From NCBI GenBank assembly GCA_023230175.1, contig JALNXV010000035.1, positions 1-15,582 on the forward strand: DNA of 15,582 bases, in the 5' to 3' direction. The notes under the pieces were generated by a model that saw only the letters and a program-made list of their open reading frames with translations, was not told where the DNA came from and did no database searches. Shown here piece after piece: positions 5,272-15,582 of this stretch. The DNA comes from Candidatus Cloacimonadota bacterium. Its GTDB lineage: Bacteria; Cloacimonadota; Cloacimonadia; Cloacimonadales; WRIO01. Both the position numbers and the translations under genes were made by a program. Positions within the stretch are counted from its first letter, which is position 1. Every line of letters starts with the position of its first letter.

Positions 5272-7629
5272 ATGAAAAGAAACAATTTATTTTTTTTACC
5301 TTTACTATTACTATTAATTATCATTTTATTTGGATGCAATGAAGAAGTTGCTGAAATTGAGATTAATTTTGACTCTAATGGCGGTTCTAGCGTTAATTCA
5401 ATTTCATACGATTATTTATCTGATATTGCCATGCCCATTAACCCAACAAAGGATGGCTATCGGTTTGAAAATTGGTATTGGGATAACAACAGTTTTGAAC
5501 GTCCATTCACTATTAATTCTATTTCAGAACAATCTAATAAAGAAGATACAAAAATAGTAGTTTATGCTAAATGGGAAGTAATTTATTATTCGATTAATTA
5601 CGTGCTAGATGGAGGAATTAATAATAGTAATAATCCCTCTACATTTACTATTGAATTAAGAAGTTTAGAAATTTTTGAACCAATAAAGGAAAATTATGTT
5701 TTTGAAGGTTGGTATTTTGATACTGAATTTAAAAAACCTTATGTAGTTAATAATAAAATACTAAAAGATATAGACTTATACGCTAAATGGAGTCCAAGAT
5801 TATATCAATTGCAGTTTTTAGATAGCGATGGAACTGTTTTATTATCTGAGGAGCATTATTATCTACATGCTTTTGAATCTCTACAAGCTCCAGTTGTAAC
5901 TAGAGAAGGATATACTTTTTTAGGATGGGATAAAGAATTGCCATTAAGTATGCCAGGCAATAACATAACATTAAAAGCGGTCTATATAATTAATCAATAC
6001 AAAATAAGTTTTGATGTTAATGGTGGATCTCCTATTCAATCTACGATGGTTAAATATGATGAGGTTTTGATTGAATTTGAAGAGCCTAAAAAAGAGGGTT
6101 TTAGTTTTGGTGGTTGGTATTTAGATATTGAATTTATAAATGAATTCGATTTTATAAAAATGCCATCAGAAGATATTATTGTTTTCGCAAAATGGGTTAA
6201 TGCTTCATACAAGATTGATTATTATATTTACGGCAGTGATAATTTAGGTGCACAAATTACTTTATTACCTGGAGAGAAAATAAAGGAAAGTTCTTTGGGT
6301 GCTCTGCATTCTGTAATTCTTACATCTTATGGACGTTTGTTCACTTTTGGTGATAATGAATATTGCCAATTAGGAGATGGAACAAATACAGTAAAAAATG
6401 TAGCTACGCCTAAAGAAATTACTTATTTATTTAATTTAAGTTTTAATGAAATAATTGAAAAGATTTCCATAGGTTATCATCATTCTGCAGCATTAACATC
6501 ACTTGGTCGTATGTTTACGTGGGGTTATAATGAATACGCGCAATTAGGTGATGGAACTAAAATAAACAGTTGTTTTCCGAAAGATATAACAAGTCAATTT
6601 GATTTAGAAGAGGGAGATACCATTAAAAGTATTTCTTTAAATATGTTTCAATCTTCTGCTCTAACTTCAAATGGGCGTTTATATACTTGGGGAGATAATC
6701 GAGAAGCTCAACTGGGTTATGTTTTAGTAAGATATGTAGGTATTCCAACAGAAATAACTGAAACGTTTTATTTAAATGGAGATGAAAAAATTATTGAGAT
6801 ATCATTAGGTGGTCAACATTCGTCAGCTATTACTTCACTAGGTCGTATATTTTGCTGGGGAAGTAACACATATGGACAATTGGGAGACGGAAGTAGTGAA
6901 AAAAGAATTTTACCAACAGATATTACTAGTAGATTTAATTTAGAGTTAGATGAAAGTTTTGAAATGATGTCTTTAGGTCAATATCAATCTGCTGTGCTTA
7001 CTTCAAATGGAAGGTTGTTTACCTTTGGGTATAATTTTAGCGGTCAAATTGGTAATGGCACAAATGTTACGGATATTTTTTCACTAACTGAAATAACTAA
7101 TCAATTTAATTTAGAAAGCGATGACAAAATTAAGTTTGTAGATTTTGGTTATTCTCATGCAGGAGCCATTACATTGAAGAACAGAATCTTTACATGGGGA
7201 TATAATTCCTGTGGGCAAATAGGGAATGGTACGTCTATTATAGATAAATATTCACCAACTGAAATTACAACCTTTCTGAATTTTGTAAATGATGATTTTA
7301 TTGAAAGTATTTCTTTAGGATTATATCATTCATCAGCGATTTCATCAGATGGTAGATTCTTTTCTTGGGGTTGGAATAATAAAGGCCAATTAGGAGAAGG
7401 TACATTTCAAAATAAATTTTATCCTACAAAAATGGAATATAATGAACTATCATTTATTTTTACTGACAAATATGAATCAGGAAAAGAAATAAAAGAATAT
7501 GTTCCAAAGTTAGATGATTATATATTTAGTGGCTGGTATTTAGATTCTGATTTATTTGAACCATTTGTTAATAAAAACATGGTTGATAAAAACATTATTC
7601 TTTATGGAAGATGGATTCCTAAACCTTAA
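5272..7629 (+). CDS. Surface lipoprotein with InlB-type B-repeats and a seven-repeat RCC1 propeller
   Basis: The 785-residue protein opens with MKRNN, a Leu/Ile-rich core and the lipobox LFGC, so Cys22 would be lipidated and the protein anchored outside the membrane. Residues ~27-313 hold four InlB-type B-repeats (Listeria-Bacteroides repeat), each with an NGG- or DGG-like strand, a GxxFxGWY block and an AKW or AVY end. From ~341 to ~724 there are seven RCC1 repeats of 56-57 residues (SLGxxHSxAITSxGRxFTWGxNxxGQLGDGT, PTEIT), just enough for one closed seven-bladed propeller. The C-terminus (726-785) is again B-repeat-like (FSGWY, ILYGRW). GGAG at 5261-5264 is the ribosome site. No sorting signal is present. 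A role in binding or adhesion is likely but not shown; the ligand is unknown. Confidence 0.85.
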   Translation: MKRNNLFFLPLLLLLIIILFGCNEEVAEIEINFDSNGGSSVNSISYDYLSDIAMPINPTKDGYRFENWYWDNNSFERPFTINSISEQSNKEDTKIVVYAKWEVIYYSINYVLDGGINNSNNPSTFTIELRSLEIFEPIKENYVFEGWYFDTEFKKPYVVNNKILKDIDLYAKWSPRLYQLQFLDSDGTVLLSEEHYYLHAFESLQAPVVTREGYTFLGWDKELPLSMPGNNITLKAVYIINQYKISFDVNGGSPIQSTMVKYDEVLIEFEEPKKEGFSFGGWYLDIEFINEFDFIKMPSEDIIVFAKWVNASYKIDYYIYGSDNLGAQITLLPGEKIKESSLGALHSVILTSYGRLFTFGDNEYCQLGDGTNTVKNVATPKEITYLFNLSFNEIIEKISIGYHHSAALTSLGRMFTWGYNEYAQLGDGTKINSCFPKDITSQFDLEEGDTIKSISLNMFQSSALTSNGRLYTWGDNREAQLGYVLVRYVGIPTEITETFYLNGDEKIIEISLGGQHSSAITSLGRIFCWGSNTYGQLGDGSSEKRILPTDITSRFNLELDESFEMMSLGQYQSAVLTSNGRLFTFGYNFSGQIGNGTNVTDIFSLTEITNQFNLESDDKIKFVDFGYSHAGAITLKNRIFTWGYNSCGQIGNGTSIIDKYSPTEITTFLNFVNDDFIESISLGLYHSSAISSDGRFFSWGWNNKGQLGEGTFQNKFYPTKMEYNELSFIFTDKYESGKEIKEYVPKLDDYIFSGWYLDSDLFEPFVNKNMVDKNIILYGRWIPKP

Positions 7630-8464: not shown

Positions 8465-11029
8465 ATGAATAAACAACAACTAGCTTCAAAAATTTGGGAA
8501 TCAGCGAATAAAATGAGATCAAAAATTGATGCTGGAGAGTATAAAGATTATATTCTTGGCTTCATGTTTTATAAGTTTTTATCTGATAAAGAATTAAGAT
8601 TTATAAGAGAAAAAGGATATAGTGATGAAGATATTAAGAATTTAGATGAAACGGATATAGAATCTGTAAAATTCATTCAAAATAATGTTGGCTATTTTAT
8701 TTCGTATAAAGATCTTTTTTCAACATGGATTGAAAAAGGAACTGATTTTGATGTAAGTGATGTCAGGGATGCTTTGAGTGCTTTTGGAAGATTAATTAAT
8801 AGAACACATAAGAAAGTCTTTAACCGGATATTTAATACATTAGAGACAGGATTGAATCGGCTTGGAGGTTCAGCAGCTGAACAAACAAAGGCAGTTAGAG
8901 ATTTAATTCAGCTTTTAAACATTATTCCAATGGATGGAAGACAAGATTACGACATACTTGGTTTCATATATGAATATTTAATTAGTAATTTTGCGGTTAA
9001 TGCTGGTAAAAAAGCAGGAGAATTCTATACACCACATGAAGTATCAATTTTAATGTCTGAAATAGTGGCAGATCATTTAAAACATAAAGAGGAAATTAAA
9101 ATCTATGACCCAACTAGTGGGTCTGGATCATTATTAATTAATATTGGGCATTCAATTGCTAAACATATGAGTAATAAGAATAATATAAAATATTATGCTC
9201 AAGAATTAAAAGAAAATACTTATAACCTTACAAGAATGAATTTAGTTATGAGAGGTATTTTACCAGATAATATTGTAGCAAGAAATGCAGATACTTTAGA
9301 AAGTGACTGGCCATATTTTGATGAATCAGATCCGCAAGGCACATATGATCCCTTGTATGTTGATGCGGTTGTTTCTAATCCACCTTACTCACAAAAGTGG
9401 GATAGGGATAATAAAGAATCAGATCCTAGATATGCTGAGTTTGGTTTAGCACCAAAATCAAAAGCAGATTATGCTTTTTTATTACATGATTTATTTCATG
9501 TGAAACCAGATGGTATTATGACAATTGTTCTTCCACATGGTGTGTTATTTAGGGGTGGCGAGGAAGGTCAAATTAGAAAAAATTTAATTGAAAAGAATCA
9601 TATAGATACAATTATTGGCTTACCCGCTAATATTTTCTTTGGTACAGGGATCCCTACTATTATTATGGTATTAAAGAAAGAAAGCAAAAAAACTAATGAT
9701 ATTTTGGTGATTGATGCATCGAAAGGCTTTATAAAAGTAGGAAGTAAAAATCAATTAAGAGCATCGGATATTAAGAAAATTTCTGATGTAGTTATTCATA
9801 GAGAATCTATAGATAAATTTTCAAGGGTTGTTAGTATTGATGAGATTCGCAAAAATGATTATAATTTAAATATTCCAAGATATGTTGATTCTTCAGAAGC
9901 TAGCGAAACATGGGACATTTACTCACTGATGTTTGGAGGCATTCCAAAATCAGAAGTAAAAAGTCTTGAAAAATATTGGAAAGTTTTTCCAAGTTTAAAA
10001 GAAGAGTTATTTGATGATATTAATGAACGATATGTTTCTTTAAAACACAAAGATACTAAAGCAATTATTATTAATAATCAAGATGTTATTTTATATCTAT
10101 CTAATTTTTGCAATGAATTTTCAGATTTTAATAAATTTATGAAAAAAAGACTTTTAGACAATATGATGATGCTTAATATTCCACAAGAACAAGAAGAAAT
10201 TAGTTTTGAGATTTTTAATAGATTAAAATCATTTAATTTACTTGATAAATATAAAGCATATCAAGCACTTGAAGATGAATGGGTTAAAACATCGATTGAT
10301 TTAGAAATTATTCAGTATGAAGGATTTGATTCTGTAAAAAAAGTAGATCCTAACATGATTATAAAAAAACGAGGAAATCAAGAAGAAGAAGTTCAAGATG
10401 GATGGGTAGGTAGAGTAATTCCTTTTGAAATTGTGCAAAAAACATTTTTAAAAAATGAATTAGCAAGTCTTACATCTAAAGAAAATAGGATAACAGATAT
10501 TCTATCTGAACATCAAGAATTAATAGATTCATTGACAGAAGAAGAAAAAGAACAAGCATTCAATGATAATGGGGATTCTTTTGATATAAAGAAAGTAAAA
10601 GAATTAATAAAAGAATTAGATGATTCATCAGATGATGAATCATTCAAATCAAAATTGCTTCAATATACGGATTTAGTAAATGAAGAAAAAGTATTAAAAA
10701 AAGGAATAAAAACTGAAATAGTTAATTTACATAATAAAACAAAAGATACAATTGAATCTTTAACAAATGATGATGCTATTAAATTATTAAATAATAAATG
10801 GATACAACCTTTACATGATTCAATTATTAAATTGTCAGAAGAAATTATTAGTGACATTACAAATAAAATAAATTTACTAAAAGAAAAGTATCATGTTACT
10901 TTTTCTGATATTTCTGAAGAAATACAAGAAAATCAAAAGACATTAATATCGTTGATAGATGAACTAGAAGGTGATGATTTTGATATGAAAGGTCTTAGTG
11001 AATTAAAATCACTATTAAATGGTGATTAA
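8465..11029 (+). CDS. hsdM: Type I restriction-modification methyltransferase subunit HsdM, long form
   Basis: This subunit transfers a methyl group from S-adenosylmethionine to adenine N6 in the site chosen by HsdS. Residues ~8-42 (KIWESANKMR, GEYKDYILGFMFYKFLS) match the HsdM N-terminal domain. The methyltransferase core carries motif I DPTSGSG at 215-221 (cofactor binding) and motif IV NPPY at 305-308 (catalytic). The protein has 854 residues, whereas classical HsdM is about 500-550. The extra ~330 C-terminal residues are Lys/Glu-rich, mostly helical with coiled-coil character from ~650 on, and of unknown role. AGGAG at 8451-8455, inside the end of the regulator gene, is the ribosome site. 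hsdS follows with a 1-bp gap (or an 11-bp overlap if its earlier ATG is used). The gene is intact. Confidence 0.93.
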   Translation: MNKQQLASKIWESANKMRSKIDAGEYKDYILGFMFYKFLSDKELRFIREKGYSDEDIKNLDETDIESVKFIQNNVGYFISYKDLFSTWIEKGTDFDVSDVRDALSAFGRLINRTHKKVFNRIFNTLETGLNRLGGSAAEQTKAVRDLIQLLNIIPMDGRQDYDILGFIYEYLISNFAVNAGKKAGEFYTPHEVSILMSEIVADHLKHKEEIKIYDPTSGSGSLLINIGHSIAKHMSNKNNIKYYAQELKENTYNLTRMNLVMRGILPDNIVARNADTLESDWPYFDESDPQGTYDPLYVDAVVSNPPYSQKWDRDNKESDPRYAEFGLAPKSKADYAFLLHDLFHVKPDGIMTIVLPHGVLFRGGEEGQIRKNLIEKNHIDTIIGLPANIFFGTGIPTIIMVLKKESKKTNDILVIDASKGFIKVGSKNQLRASDIKKISDVVIHRESIDKFSRVVSIDEIRKNDYNLNIPRYVDSSEASETWDIYSLMFGGIPKSEVKSLEKYWKVFPSLKEELFDDINERYVSLKHKDTKAIIINNQDVILYLSNFCNEFSDFNKFMKKRLLDNMMMLNIPQEQEEISFEIFNRLKSFNLLDKYKAYQALEDEWVKTSIDLEIIQYEGFDSVKKVDPNMIIKKRGNQEEEVQDGWVGRVIPFEIVQKTFLKNELASLTSKENRITDILSEHQELIDSLTEEEKEQAFNDNGDSFDIKKVKELIKELDDSSDDESFKSKLLQYTDLVNEEKVLKKGIKTEIVNLHNKTKDTIESLTNDDAIKLLNNKWIQPLHDSIIKLSEEIISDITNKINLLKEKYHVTFSDISEEIQENQKTLISLIDELEGDDFDMKGLSELKSLLNGD

Positions 11030-11030
11030 A

Positions 11031-12287
11031 ATGGAAAAAAATACTCAAATACCAAGTTTAAGATTCAAAGGATTTACTGATACTTGGGAACAGTGTGAAC
11101 TAGGTGACTTAACAGATTTATATGTTGGCTCATCCTTCACTCAAGAACTATCAAGTGAAGGGAAATATATTGTTATGGATATGGGAAGTGTGTCACAAGA
11201 TGGATATAGAATTGAGTTAAAACGAACAGACATTAAAAGAGATGTACTTATAAAAAATGATTTAGTCATGCCAAAAGATGATATTGGTGGAGGACTAATA
11301 ATTGGTAAAACAGCTCATATTCCAACTGAAAACACCCATTTATTGGGTGATCATGTATTTAGACTGCGCTTTAATACAGAAGATGGATTGTTTATGCATT
11401 ACCTTATAAACTCTAACAATGTTAATGCTAGTTTAAAGAAAAAGGTAACAGGATCCGCACAGCTTGGAATCAGAGGAGTTAATGTAAAAAACGAAATTGT
11501 TAGTATACCATGCGTTAAAGAGCAGTGGCAGATTGGAAATTTATTTAATAACATTGATTCTCTTATCACCCTTCATCAGCGTAAGTATGAAAGGTTAGTT
11601 AATATTAAGAAGGCATTATTAGACAAAATGTTTCCTAAAGATGGTGAAGTAATTCCAAAATTACGTTTTAAAGGCTTTGCTGACACTTGGGAACAGTGTA
11701 AGTTTAGTGAAGTCATGGATACCGTTACTGATTTTGTTGCTGCTGGGTCGTTTGCTGATATGGCAGAAAATGTAGTTTATGAGTCTTTACCTGACTATGC
11801 ACAATTAGTTAGAACGACAGATTTAAAAAGCAACTTTTTAAATAACAATTTTGTGTATGTAAGCAAGAAAGCTTTTGAATTTCTATGGAGAGTCAACCTA
11901 GATAGAGAAGCAATAATCATGCCTAATATAGGAAATTGTGGAGAAATTTATTACGTTAATAAGGAAATATTACCTTATAAGCACAACGTTTTAGGGCCAA
12001 ATGCAATTTTAGTGAGAAGTGAAAAGCATAATAATAAGTTTCTAGCAGTAAGCTTCTTATCTGATGATTTTCAAAGAAGACTTAAGTTGATAGTTAGTCC
12101 TAATGGACAAACAAAGTTCAACAAAACTGATTTAAAAACTATTGATATATTTACACCCAGCACCAATGAACAAGTAAAGGTAGGAACTCTTTTTGACAGT
12201 CTTGATTCACTTATCACCCTTCATCAGCGTAAGTATGAAAAGCTAAAAAATATAAAAAAAGCATTACTTAAAAAAATGTTTGTTTAG
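11031..12287 (+). CDS. hsdS: Type I restriction-modification specificity subunit HsdS
   Basis: HsdS chooses the bipartite DNA target for methylation and cleavage. The protein has 418 residues and the usual two-fold plan: target-recognition domain 1 (to ~160), a helical conserved region (SLITLHQRKYERLVNIKKAL), domain 2 (from ~219) and a second conserved helix (SLITLHQRKYEKLKNIKKAL). Each half opens with the same block, LRFKGFTDTWEQC and LRFKGFADTWEQC, exactly 201 residues apart. The two recognition domains differ, so the target should have two different half sites. I prefer ATG 11031, which has GGTG 6 bp ahead and gives the typical MEKNTQIPSLRF start. ATG 11019 would add four residues and overlap hsdM by 11 bp. 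The beginning of domain 2 is duplicated downstream of hsdR. Confidence 0.93.
   Translation: MEKNTQIPSLRFKGFTDTWEQCELGDLTDLYVGSSFTQELSSEGKYIVMDMGSVSQDGYRIELKRTDIKRDVLIKNDLVMPKDDIGGGLIIGKTAHIPTENTHLLGDHVFRLRFNTEDGLFMHYLINSNNVNASLKKKVTGSAQLGIRGVNVKNEIVSIPCVKEQWQIGNLFNNIDSLITLHQRKYERLVNIKKALLDKMFPKDGEVIPKLRFKGFADTWEQCKFSEVMDTVTDFVAAGSFADMAENVVYESLPDYAQLVRTTDLKSNFLNNNFVYVSKKAFEFLWRVNLDREAIIMPNIGNCGEIYYVNKEILPYKHNVLGPNAILVRSEKHNNKFLAVSFLSDDFQRRLKLIVSPNGQTKFNKTDLKTIDIFTPSTNEQVKVGTLFDSLDSLITLHQRKYEKLKNIKKALLKKMFV
11562..11592 (+). repeat. 31-bp exact repeat in the conserved regions of hsdS (second copy 12210-12240)
   Basis: The stretch beginning CTTATCACCCTTCATCAGCG is identical at 11562-11592 and 12210-12240, 648 bp apart. 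It encodes the start of the two conserved helices that dimerise in HsdS. Such near-identity at DNA level, beyond what the protein requires, gives a site for homologous exchange of recognition domains. Confidence 0.9.
11685..11783 (+). repeat. 99-bp segment of hsdS repeated exactly at 15484-15582
   Basis: All 99 bases are identical between the copies, in the same orientation. The segment begins at the TWEQC block (T219 of HsdS) and covers the first 33 residues of the second half. The base before it differs (C at 11684, T at 15483). The true length is unknown because the second copy reaches the window edge. Confidence 0.97.
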
Positions 12288-12302
12288 AAAGGCAGTAATT
12301 TT

Positions 12303-15300
12303 ATGGCATTTGATAATGAATTAATATTTGAAAAGGAAGTTATTTCTGTCTTATCTCAATATGGATGGGAAAAAGAAGTTATAAATAATCCAACTGAAGA
12401 AATTTTGTTGGAAAACTGGGCTAATATTCTTTTCACTAATAACAGACAAATTGACCGTCTTAATAATCAACCATTGACTAAATCAGAGATGCAACAAATT
12501 CTTGAACAAATTAGGTCATTAAGAACACCTTTAATGTTGAATGGATTTATTAATGGCAAAACTGTTTCTATAAAAAGAGATAACATTAATGATATTCTCC
12601 ACAATGGTAAGGAAATCAGTTTAAAAATATATGATCGAATGGAGATTGCTGCGGGGAGTAGTAAATATCAAATTGTAAGTCAACCTCAATTTATAACTCC
12701 AGGAATTTTAAACGACCGTAGAGGAGATTTATTACTTTTGATAAATGGTATGCCAGTTATTCATATAGAACTTAAAAAATCTGGTATTCCAGTTTCTCAA
12801 GCTGCTAATCAAATTGAAAAATATTCAAGAGAAGGTGTTTTTAGAGGAATTTATTCATTAATTCAAATTTTTGTTGCAATGACTCCAGAAGAAACTCTTT
12901 ATTTTTCAAATCCTGGTGAAGATAACAAGTTTAATTCTAATTTTTATTTTCATTGGGCGGATTTCAATAATGAACCTATTAATGATTGGAAAGAAGTAAC
13001 TGCTAAATTGCTTTCTATTCCTATGGCTCATCAACTTATAGGTTTTTATACGGTTGCTGATAACACAGATGGATTGTTAAAAGTAATGAGAAGTTATCAA
13101 TACTATGCAGCAAATGCTATTTCTGATAAAGTCTCTAAAACTGATTGGACTGCACAAAATAATCGTGGGGGATATATTTGGCACACAACTGGTTCAGGAA
13201 AAACTATGACTAGTTTTAAATCTGCTCAGTTAATAGCAAGTTCTAAAGATGCTGATAAAGTTATATTCCTTGTGGACAGGATAGAACTTGCAACTCAATC
13301 ACTTAATGAATATAAAAATTTTGCAAATGAGAATGAAGATATACAAGCAACAGAAAGTACCAATGTTTTAGTTACTAAATTAAAAAGTAAAGATCCTGCA
13401 AATACTCTTATTGTCACATCGATTCAAAAAATGAGCCGGATTAGTGAAGATGATGACGGGTTTAAAGAAAAAGATATTGAACTAATGAAATCTAAAAGAA
13501 CCGTTTTTATTGTTGATGAAGCACATAGATCTACTTTTGGAGAGATGCTTTATACCATTAAAAAAACATTTCCACAAGCTATTTTCTTTGGTTTTACCGG
13601 TACACCTATTCATGATGATAATGCTCGTAATGAATCAACAACAGCTGATGTCTTTGGTAACGAATTACACCGTTATAGTATATCTGATGGCATTAGAGAT
13701 AAAAATGTTCTTGGCTTTGATCCTTATAGAGTATCAACATTTAGTGAAAGAGAATTAAGAAGAGAAATAGCACTAAAAGAATCAAAATCAATTGATGAAA
13801 AAGAAGCTATTTCTGATCCTCTTAAGAGTATTAAATATTATGAGTTTATAAATGATGTACCAATGGCGGGTTATTATGATGAGTTAAATAGGCGAATAAA
13901 AGGAATTGAAGATTATATTCCAAATTCTCAATATAATAGTGAAATACATCGTAAAGAGGTTGTGAAAGATATTTTATCTAGCTGGACGACTTTAAGCAGA
14001 AATTCTAAATTCCATGCCATTTTTGCAACAAATAGAATTAAGGAAGCTATTGAATATTATAAGTTATTTAAATCTAATAGTCCTACCTTAAAGGTTGTTG
14101 GTTTGTTTGACCCGAATATTGATAATACTGAAGGCACGGAATTCAAAGAAGAAGGATTGGTCCTACTGTTAGAAGATTATAATGCTAGATATGGAATGAC
14201 ATATACATTAGGAAGCTGGGATATGTATAAGAAAAATGTAGCTTCACGACTAGCACACAAGGCACCATATATTGGAATTGAGAAAACTCCAGAAAAACAA
14301 ATAGATTTATTAATTGTTGTTAATCAAATGCTAACTGGATTTGATTCTAAATGGATTAATACTTTATATGTAGATAAAATGTTAGAAAATGAACATGTGA
14401 TTCAAGCTTTTTCTAGAACAAATAGATTGCTTGGACCGGAAAAACCATTTGGCACTATAAAATATTATCGAAAACCTCACACAATGGAAAAAAATATTGA
14501 AAAAGCCATTAGAAGTTATTCTGGAAATAAACCTTTGGGTATTTTTGTTCCAAAGATTAAAGAAAATTTAATGAAAATGAATAATATTTTTGAAGAAATA
14601 AAAATTTTATTTATTAGAGAGGGTAAAATTGATTGTGCAAAGTTACCCGATGATTCAGCTACAAAAGCAAAATTTTCCAAACTTTTTAAACAATTTAATG
14701 AAGCTTTGGTAGCAGCAAAAATTCAGGGGTTTAATTGGGATAAAATTAAAAAAGCAGATTTTTTATTTGAAGGAAATATGGAAATTAAGTTTCTTGAAAA
14801 TGATTATTTAACACTTGCTTTAAGATATAAAGAATTACCATTATCAGAAAAAAATAAAAATGAAGATGTTCCCTATGAGATTGACGGTTATTTAACGGAA
14901 ATTAATACTGGTCTAATAGATACTAACTACATGAACTCTAAGTTTCAGAAATACTTAAAAGCGTTAGATAGTGGCGTAAATGATGATAAAGATAAGACTC
15001 TAAGTGAACTTCATAGTACATTCGCAACTTTGACGCAAGAAGAACAAAAGTATGCTTCGATATTTTTGAGAGATATTGAGCGTGGTGATACTTTGGTTGT
15101 GGAAGAAAAATCATTGAGAGATTATATTACCGAATATCAAGTAAAAGATAAAAGGGACCAAATTTCAAATTGTGCAGAAGTTTTTGGGTTAGATGAATTT
15201 AAGTTAAGACAATTTTTTGCAATTAAGGTCACTATAGACTCTATTAATGAGTTTGGAAGATTTGATTCTTTAAAAAATACCGTAAATATTTTAAAAGCTA

Positions 15301-15431
15301 GAAAATATTTTGAAAGACAAGAAAAAACCAAACTTAGTATTCCGAAAATTCATATGAGAGTAGATGCATTTTTAAGAAGATTCATATTTGAAGGTGGTTT
15401 TCATATTAACTTACCAGATGATGATGAATGA
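12303..15431 (+). CDS. hsdR: Type I restriction endonuclease subunit HsdR
   Basis: HsdR is the ATP-driven translocase and nuclease of the complex. The 1042-residue protein is full length. Its N-terminal nuclease carries the PD-(D/E)xK set D142, then E156-L-K158. The superfamily 2 helicase core follows: Walker A TGSGKT at 296-301, DEAH at 405-408, TGTP at 432-435 and the arginine-finger motif QAFSRTNR at 701-708. The C-terminal third is the helical part that docks on the methyltransferase. It starts 15 bp after hsdS, with AAAGG at 12288-12292 as ribosome site, and ends with TGA just before a strong terminator. All key residues are present, so it should be active. Placing hsdR last delays cleavage relative to methylation. 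Confidence 0.95.
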   Translation: MAFDNELIFEKEVISVLSQYGWEKEVINNPTEEILLENWANILFTNNRQIDRLNNQPLTKSEMQQILEQIRSLRTPLMLNGFINGKTVSIKRDNINDILHNGKEISLKIYDRMEIAAGSSKYQIVSQPQFITPGILNDRRGDLLLLINGMPVIHIELKKSGIPVSQAANQIEKYSREGVFRGIYSLIQIFVAMTPEETLYFSNPGEDNKFNSNFYFHWADFNNEPINDWKEVTAKLLSIPMAHQLIGFYTVADNTDGLLKVMRSYQYYAANAISDKVSKTDWTAQNNRGGYIWHTTGSGKTMTSFKSAQLIASSKDADKVIFLVDRIELATQSLNEYKNFANENEDIQATESTNVLVTKLKSKDPANTLIVTSIQKMSRISEDDDGFKEKDIELMKSKRTVFIVDEAHRSTFGEMLYTIKKTFPQAIFFGFTGTPIHDDNARNESTTADVFGNELHRYSISDGIRDKNVLGFDPYRVSTFSERELRREIALKESKSIDEKEAISDPLKSIKYYEFINDVPMAGYYDELNRRIKGIEDYIPNSQYNSEIHRKEVVKDILSSWTTLSRNSKFHAIFATNRIKEAIEYYKLFKSNSPTLKVVGLFDPNIDNTEGTEFKEEGLVLLLEDYNARYGMTYTLGSWDMYKKNVASRLAHKAPYIGIEKTPEKQIDLLIVVNQMLTGFDSKWINTLYVDKMLENEHVIQAFSRTNRLLGPEKPFGTIKYYRKPHTMEKNIEKAIRSYSGNKPLGIFVPKIKENLMKMNNIFEEIKILFIREGKIDCAKLPDDSATKAKFSKLFKQFNEALVAAKIQGFNWDKIKKADFLFEGNMEIKFLENDYLTLALRYKELPLSEKNKNEDVPYEIDGYLTEINTGLIDTNYMNSKFQKYLKALDSGVNDDKDKTLSELHSTFATLTQEEQKYASIFLRDIERGDTLVVEEKSLRDYITEYQVKDKRDQISNCAEVFGLDEFKLRQFFAIKVTIDSINEFGRFDSLKNTVNILKARKYFERQEKTKLSIPKIHMRVDAFLRRFIFEGGFHINLPDDDE

Positions 15432-15449
15432 AAATCTTTATTGAGAATA

Positions 15450-15477
15450 AAAAAAGAACCGAAAGCGGTTCTTTTTT
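15450..15477 (+). terminator. Strong terminator closing the hsd operon
   Basis: A 12-bp perfect stem, AAAAAAGAACCG (15450-15461) against CGGTTCTTTTTT (15466-15477), encloses the 4-nt loop AAAG. It lies 18 bp after the hsdR stop and 6 bp before the hsdS fragment, so that fragment should not be transcribed from the operon promoter. Confidence 0.9.
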
Positions 15478-15483
15478 ACTTTT

Positions 15484-15582
15484 ACTTGGGAACAGTGTAA
15501 GTTTAGTGAAGTCATGGATACCGTTACTGATTTTGTTGCTGCTGGGTCGTTTGCTGATATGGCAGAAAATGTAGTTTATGAG
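15484..15582 (+). pseudogene. Silent partial hsdS cassette (continues past the window edge)
   Basis: The frame reads TWEQCKFSEVMDTVTDFVAA and on to VVYE at the edge, identical to residues 219-251 of HsdS. Upstream, the frame reaches a stop at 15448 with no ATG, GTG or TTG in between, and there is no ribosome site; a terminator lies 6 bp ahead. It can therefore not be expressed as it stands. Bases 15483-15498 also match the N-terminal block of hsdS (11081-11096), so the piece begins just at the conserved block shared by both halves. That is what a stored recognition-domain cassette would look like. It may instead be the scar of a duplication, or may lead into a longer second hsdS beyond the window. 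Confidence 0.8.

Follow-up and report, generated by a model that had tools for sequence, protein, structure and literature searches.

The window analysed here, i.e. the whole 15,582-bp stretch of contig JALNXV010000035.1, ends in a duplicated piece of hsdS, the specificity gene of a type I restriction-modification (R-M) system. According to the listing of P0001, which is the window's own HsdS, the stretch represents one complete contig. The system is of type I, as hsdM, an hsdS with two recognition domains and hsdR lie at one locus, all on the forward strand. The open reading frame (ORF) of the methyltransferase subunit hsdM occupies 8465..11029 (N6_Mtase, 4e-105; HsdM_N, 2e-13) and is followed by the active hsdS at 11019..12287, with Methylase_S matched in two stretches, and by the restriction subunit hsdR at 12303..15431, identified by Pfam matches and by an NCBIfam hsdR match over its cut-off. 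Within hsdS, the cassettes of recognition domains 1 and 2, each measured from its 5' site to the end of its 3' site, extend over 11082..11585 and 11685..12233. Behind hsdR, a terminator-like hairpin with a T-run is located at about 15450..15477 on the same strand (folding of 54 nt, -15.4 kcal/mol). The remaining 99 bp, 15484..15582, most probably represent the start of a silent recognition-domain cassette that is cut by the contig end.

Self-comparison of the window showed that positions 15484-15582 are identical to 11685-11783 over 99 bp in direct orientation. The repeat starts with ACTTGGGAACAG and extends to the final base of the contig. No longer exact direct repeat is present in the window, and 200 first-order Markov windows of equal length gave no more than 19 bp, which rules out a chance origin. 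Read in frame, the copy corresponds to the beginning of the second hsdS recognition domain (TWEQCKFSEVMDTVTDF...), in agreement base for base with an earlier note on this DNA, which had described the 99 bases after hsdR and its terminator as the start of that domain in the same orientation. The same note had described the copy as lacking a start codon. This holds for the start codon and N-terminus of hsdS, both of which are absent at 15484; an internal in-frame ATG is found at 15514, and two related database proteins (P0010 and P0121) start at the methionine matching it. An exact 61-base piece of the shared block had no match in viral_contigs, the window yielded no exact inverted 20-mer, and scans of the window with Rfam (gathering threshold) and for tRNAs were empty.

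The repeat stops at 15582 because the contig stops there. A k of 99 is common in de Bruijn assembly, and the 99 bp could most simply be read as the k-mer overlap left by an assembler at a branching k-mer with k = 99. As one k-mer at a contig end, the 99 bp are a lower bound, and the true shared length is larger or equal. A comparable situation was found in the related locus L001 (contig E21_k141_209045), the two ends of which form an exact 141-bp inverted repeat, while another contig of the same genome (C139, locus L041) ends in the same 141 bp. In that genome one domain thus leads both to the active hsdS and to the inverted silent place, an assembly break of the same kind as in the window. 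This suggests that, in short-read assemblies, contigs ending exactly k bases into hsdS can serve as an indication of stored cassettes.

According to a motif scan, both hsdS domains are framed by a 5' border, ACTTGGGAACAG, and a 3' border, CTTCATCAGCGTAAG. The 5' site occurs at 11082, 11685 and 15484, where it makes up the first 12 bases of the silent copy, and the 15-base core of the 3' site at 11571 and 12219. The complete 3' site comprises 24 bp, CTTATCACCCTTCATCAGCGTAAG, encoding LITLHQRK, and is located on the forward strand at 11562..11585 after domain 1 and, with the same 24 bp, at 12210..12233 after domain 2. The identity of the copies in the window and in the genome of L001 (G001) begins exactly at the A of ACTTGGGAACAG, and the base preceding CTTGGGAACAG is variable, i.e. 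A, G or T. Judged by codon frequencies in six further ORFs of the window, where most codons of the 24-bp site are rare, the probability of spelling LITLHQRK as CTTATCACCCTTCATCAGCGTAAG is 1.8e-7 per copy, and two copies are present. In the scanned loci, 23 of the 28 LHQRK copies share the identical 15 bases, three of these (two in L001, one in L041) being one domain. By these comparisons, the 3' site is evidently held at the DNA level.

For Listeria monocytogenes ST8, passages of PMC4783014 give the recombination sequences agcttgggaacagcgt at the 5' end of hsdS and ctatcgctcttcatcagcgtaagttagat in its centre. The 11-base core CTTGGGAACAG and the 15-base core CTTCATCAGCGTAAG are contained in these two published sequences, the last 15 bases of the 24-bp site after domain 1 lying inside the central repeat, so that the domain borders of the window carry the cores of known recombination sites. 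In a text search limited to one literature library, CTTCATCAGCG occurred in 23 papers, with PMC4783014 among the matches listed, and TTACGCTGATGAAG in none.

A search with HsdR yielded 14 loci. L062 and L063 were added from order-wide searches and L014, which ends inside hsdR, was dropped, leaving 15 relatives in which a cassette behind hsdR was judged by tblastn with the window's HsdS and by the sequence past hsdR. A cassette start at CTTGGGAACAG could be identified behind hsdR in six of them (L001, L002, L011, L012, L013 and L062). In the window as in these six loci, CTTGGGAACAG follows 46-78 nt after the hsdR stop, and the interval contains a hairpin with T-run in every case. In L002 and L012 the assembly breaks off at CTTGGGAACAG or just past it. 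The four loci assembled further (L001, L011, L013 and L062) continue with a complete recognition domain without the hsdS N-terminus, which ends in CTTCATCAGCGTAAG and is followed by a tyrosine recombinase gene; the full architecture is thus directly visible in relatives, and the proposal of the earlier note that the piece is a silent hsdS cassette is borne out by them. Methylase_S was matched in the cassettes of all three loci tested (L001, L011 and L013), and Phage_integrase in both recombinases tested (L001 and L011). Past the recombinase, an inverted half cassette is present in L001, and complete inverted cassettes are found in L064 (G037) and L092 (G173). Direct tandem cassettes lie between hsdS and hsdR in L093 and L094, and a direct orientation is therefore nothing unusual. 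In L011 (5867-7982), the hsdS after hsdM is cut to one domain (201 aa) and is followed by ORFs of 159 and 90 aa, a second half hsdS of 181 aa and then hsdR.

The shared junction also bears on the reading that the last 99 bases are a pure assembly artefact in which the end of hsdR was wrongly joined to hsdS. In favour of this reading, the repeat measures exactly 99 bp and ends with the contig. Against it, the assemblies of six relatives share the junction of terminator, a few bases and CTTGGGAACAG, and one would hardly expect erroneous joins to land at one and the same motif. An artefact private to the assembly of the window can thereby be ruled out, and a false join in general is highly improbable.

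The recombinase was found in all four genomes with an assembled cassette behind hsdR (G001, G006, G007 and G012); as G012 was found through its recombinase, the unbiased count is three of three. None of the eight genomes with hsdR but no cassette (G003, G004, G005 and G506-G510) gave a strong match to it, the best being 1.7e-9 and none reaching 1e-30. In G008 the contig ends in hsdR. Searches of wider scope detected the recombinase in four of 160 genomes of the order (E <= 1e-60) and in 20 of 395 genomes of the class (E <= 1e-90), two of which are shared with the order search. In the fetched stretches of the 24 genomic recombinase loci (L001, L011, L013, L062-L064 and L091-L108), hsdS sequence is present in 19. 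The recombinase has opposite orientations in L001 and L062 and lies between inverted 3' sites in each, as if the recombinase gene itself could flip.

Some further observations were made on the recombinase relatives. In L063 (G149) the gene stands directly after hsdR, flanked by inverted ATCAACGTAAG, and the module seems to stand alone. Four predicted proteins (P0016, P0263, P0282 and P0324) contain HsdS and phage-integrase domains, with cassette and recombinase in one frame. For 14 of the first 20 recombinase relatives the longest known contig is at most 2.1 kb, which may reflect assembly breaks at cassettes on either side.

The piece could also be a dead remnant, left truncated behind hsdR by an hsdS duplication, in which case neither a recombinase nor shuffling would be involved. 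Decay does occur, as the recombinase reading frame of L013 stops after 215 aa, and eight of the 15 hsdR relatives have neither a cassette nor a strong recombinase match. A remnant is nevertheless improbable: the absence of any difference in 99 bp suggests recent copying, and the left border falls exactly at the site whose core is a published recombination sequence (passages of PMC4783014).

Movement of the domain type is seen in its distribution among database proteins. Close relatives of the second domain of the window occupy the first position (P0010 and P0118), the second position (P0005) and a half cassette (P0121), and the domain type therefore moves. P0005 and P0121 are identical in 173 of 173 residues, and within this type 111 of 112 residues are identical to P0118 at the first position. 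The domain of the window shares 155 of 173 residues with P0005 or P0121. By eye, the tail of P0121 resembles the antisense tail of the inverted cassette of L001. P0002 is a 539-aa HsdS-like protein in which, by eye, a long stretch of one recognition domain is tandemly repeated.

Cassettes were also called by motif in 25 scanned stretches, nine of which have at least three on one contig; some calls look spurious, for example one in L011 and one in L094. An active cassette next to hsdM and a silent cassette are identical from site to site in L108 (523 bp, on an 814-kb contig) and in Mycoplasmopsis cynos (L017, 531 bp). A full-length identical copy in the genome of the window is plausible by analogy with these pairs.

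The 99-bp overlap could instead be the trace of ongoing switching in a mixed population, with the domain in hsdS in some cells and in the silent slot in others, merged by the assembler. Such mixing would refine rather than oppose a stored cassette, and is held to be less likely than not. Most HsdR relatives of the window are metagenome bins, P0007 and P0008 have their first 15 and last 219 residues in common and diverge in domain 1, and in the genome of L001 one domain joins two contexts. However, identical copies coexist on single long contigs in L108 and L017, so mixing is not needed, and no second domain is seen at the hsdS position in the window. In another variant, the slot past the hsdR terminator would serve as a store into which the active domain is copied from the 5' to the 3' site, leaving both domains identical between these sites, without reciprocal swapping. 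This is rather unlikely; if true, the locus would work in a copy-in, copy-out mode resembling that of mating-type cassettes, and looping-out of hsdR between the direct identical copies on its two sides could give a methylation-only state.

The explanation favoured here, and held to be quite likely, is that the 99 bp begin a silent recognition-domain cassette, which a shufflable type I R-M locus stores downstream of its hsdR terminator. The cassette would be stored past this terminator without promoter and start codon. Its identity to active domain 2, which spans at least one k-mer and probably the whole domain of about 550 bp, would be what made the assembler halt. Past the contig end, as in some relatives, the cassette is expected to end at CTTCATCAGCGTAAG, with a tyrosine recombinase gene next and perhaps an inverted further cassette beyond that gene. 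Two short sites, ACTTGGGAACAG upstream and CTTCATCAGCGTAAG downstream of each domain, would serve for cutting and joining, and the recombinase past the contig end would move domains between the store and hsdS, by inversion at inverted sites and by excision and reintegration at direct sites, as in passages on the pneumococcal tvr system (PMC6265443). For the genome of the window we infer that a recombinase is present, that the copy reaches the 3' site and that recombination alters the active hsdS.

The identity of the visible copy to domain 2 makes exchange at the second position without effect. Moving an identical copy there would be silent, and movement would matter if the copy enters the first position or if further cassettes exist. 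The earlier idea that the stored piece provides a new specificity does not fit the visible part for the same reason. The suggestion that the locus shuffles stands as probable, given the relatives and the published sites, and switching in the genome of the window itself is putative. The further argument that direct copies imply gene conversion or crossover is not well supported, as relatives carry a site-specific recombinase, some with an inverted partner, and direct cassettes of tvr move by recombinase-driven excision and reintegration (passages of PMC6265443); gene conversion as the sole route was rejected because relatives carry the recombinase.

Several results weigh against a shufflable cassette. 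The window shows no recombinase and no second cassette, its contig ending first, and the visible copy is wholly identical to active domain 2. Behind hsdR, nine of the 15 relatives (L003-L010 and L063) have no cassette by tblastn with the window's HsdS, L005 having only 148 nt there. No strong recombinase match was found in the bins of G002 and G511, whose contigs are cut at the cassette start, and G149 (L063) carries the recombinase behind hsdR and no cassette. Five of the 24 recombinase loci (L063, L102, L103, L104 and L107) are without hsdS in the stretch seen, and the Ligilactobacillus salivarius plasmid stretch L019 contains the recombinase with no hsdS annotated; as its relatives occur without hsdS, little can be concluded from the recombinase by itself. 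L003, L004 and L014, with no cassette seen and no strong recombinase match in the genome, conserve the 3' site just as well, and it may thus be inherited and not in use. Finally, no identical pair is present in seven of the nine stretches with at least three cassettes, and both identical pairs (L108 and L017) are inverted, none direct.

The comparisons with described systems are based on passages of the cited papers. The sequences of L. monocytogenes ST8/CC8 (PMC4783014) contain CTTGGGAACAG and CTTCATCAGCGTAAG, and the recombinase lies between hsdS copies there and in some relatives of the window. In contrast, two opposed hsdS genes flank the integrase in that system, while the visible cassette of the window is direct and shares its sequence, partly or wholly, with the active domain. 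The L. innocua locus L016 has an ST8-like layout with hsdR outside, whereas in the window hsdR is situated between hsdS and the cassette. Pneumococcal tvr/SpnIV (PMC6265443) shares direct-orientation domain pieces and short core repeats; its tyrosine recombinase is only expected in the locus of the window. The tvr pieces are located between hsdM and hsdR around a toxin-antitoxin pair, unlike the piece of the window, which lies past the hsdR terminator. No toxin-antitoxin pair was named among the nine window proteins searched, the DNA past the contig end lying outside this scope. Pneumococcal cod/SpnIII with PsrA (PMC7096588, PMC4948785) resembles the locus in its silent hsdS donors and in its 15-bp repeat, which there is the site of the recombinase; a tyrosine recombinase lies in that locus and is expected in the locus of the window. 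Two 5'-truncated hsdS in direct tandem follow hsdS in the hsd locus of Mycoplasma faucium (PMC11062135), but the repeats there are 28 bp long and no recombinase is named for that locus in the passages. Mycoplasmopsis cynos (NZ_LR214986.1) shows the order M-S-R followed by the recombinase and silent hsdS, with one 531-bp block equal to the active domain; unlike in the window, its silent genes are inverted. Among the literature matches listed, no title names an Acholeplasma hsdS switch.

The locus was grouped, in a broad sense, with type I systems that keep shufflable hsdS cassettes in store, as a second hsdS piece without its own start lies near the active gene (99 bp in the window, complete cassettes in four relatives). 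The window lacks one defining feature of the inverting subclass and one of the tvr subclass, for which reason the locus was assigned to neither. Unlike in the inverting systems (cod/SpnIII, Listeria ST8), the visible cassette is direct, and an inverted one could lie past the contig end, as in L001, L064 and L092; unlike in tvr, with direct pieces between hsdM and hsdR, the piece is downstream of hsdR. Very probably the locus adds another switchable restriction system to a kind that has been described before. Its HsdR appears Acholeplasmataceae-like, a lineage placement drawn from the HsdR relatives only, and R-M genes move between species. Through the locus, an uncultured lineage, Acholeplasmataceae-like by HsdR, would join the switchable type I systems that are linked to a recombinase, and loci of Mollicutes, Listeria and Clostridia are tied together by a single pair of sites at the cassette borders. 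Surveys relying on inverted repeats only (as in passages of PMC7394358) would miss stored cassettes when the copy is direct.

At the DNA level, the hsd region (8465-15582) showed similarity to 541 plasmid records, 537 at 60-80% and four at 80-99%, and to 15 phage records, all at 60-80%. The Monoglobus plasmid L015 has no cassette annotated behind hsdR. Elsewhere in the window, a 274-aa ORF at 123-947 on the forward strand has no Pfam match and no relative at 1e-20 in the 160 genomes of G004's order; its C-terminal four-cysteine pattern presumably resembles the iron-sulphur loop of endonuclease III-like enzymes. A predicted protein of 785 aa (5272-7629, forward strand) contains four Listeria-Bacteroides (Flg_new) and six RCC1 repeat stretches and has, by eye, a lipoprotein-like start.
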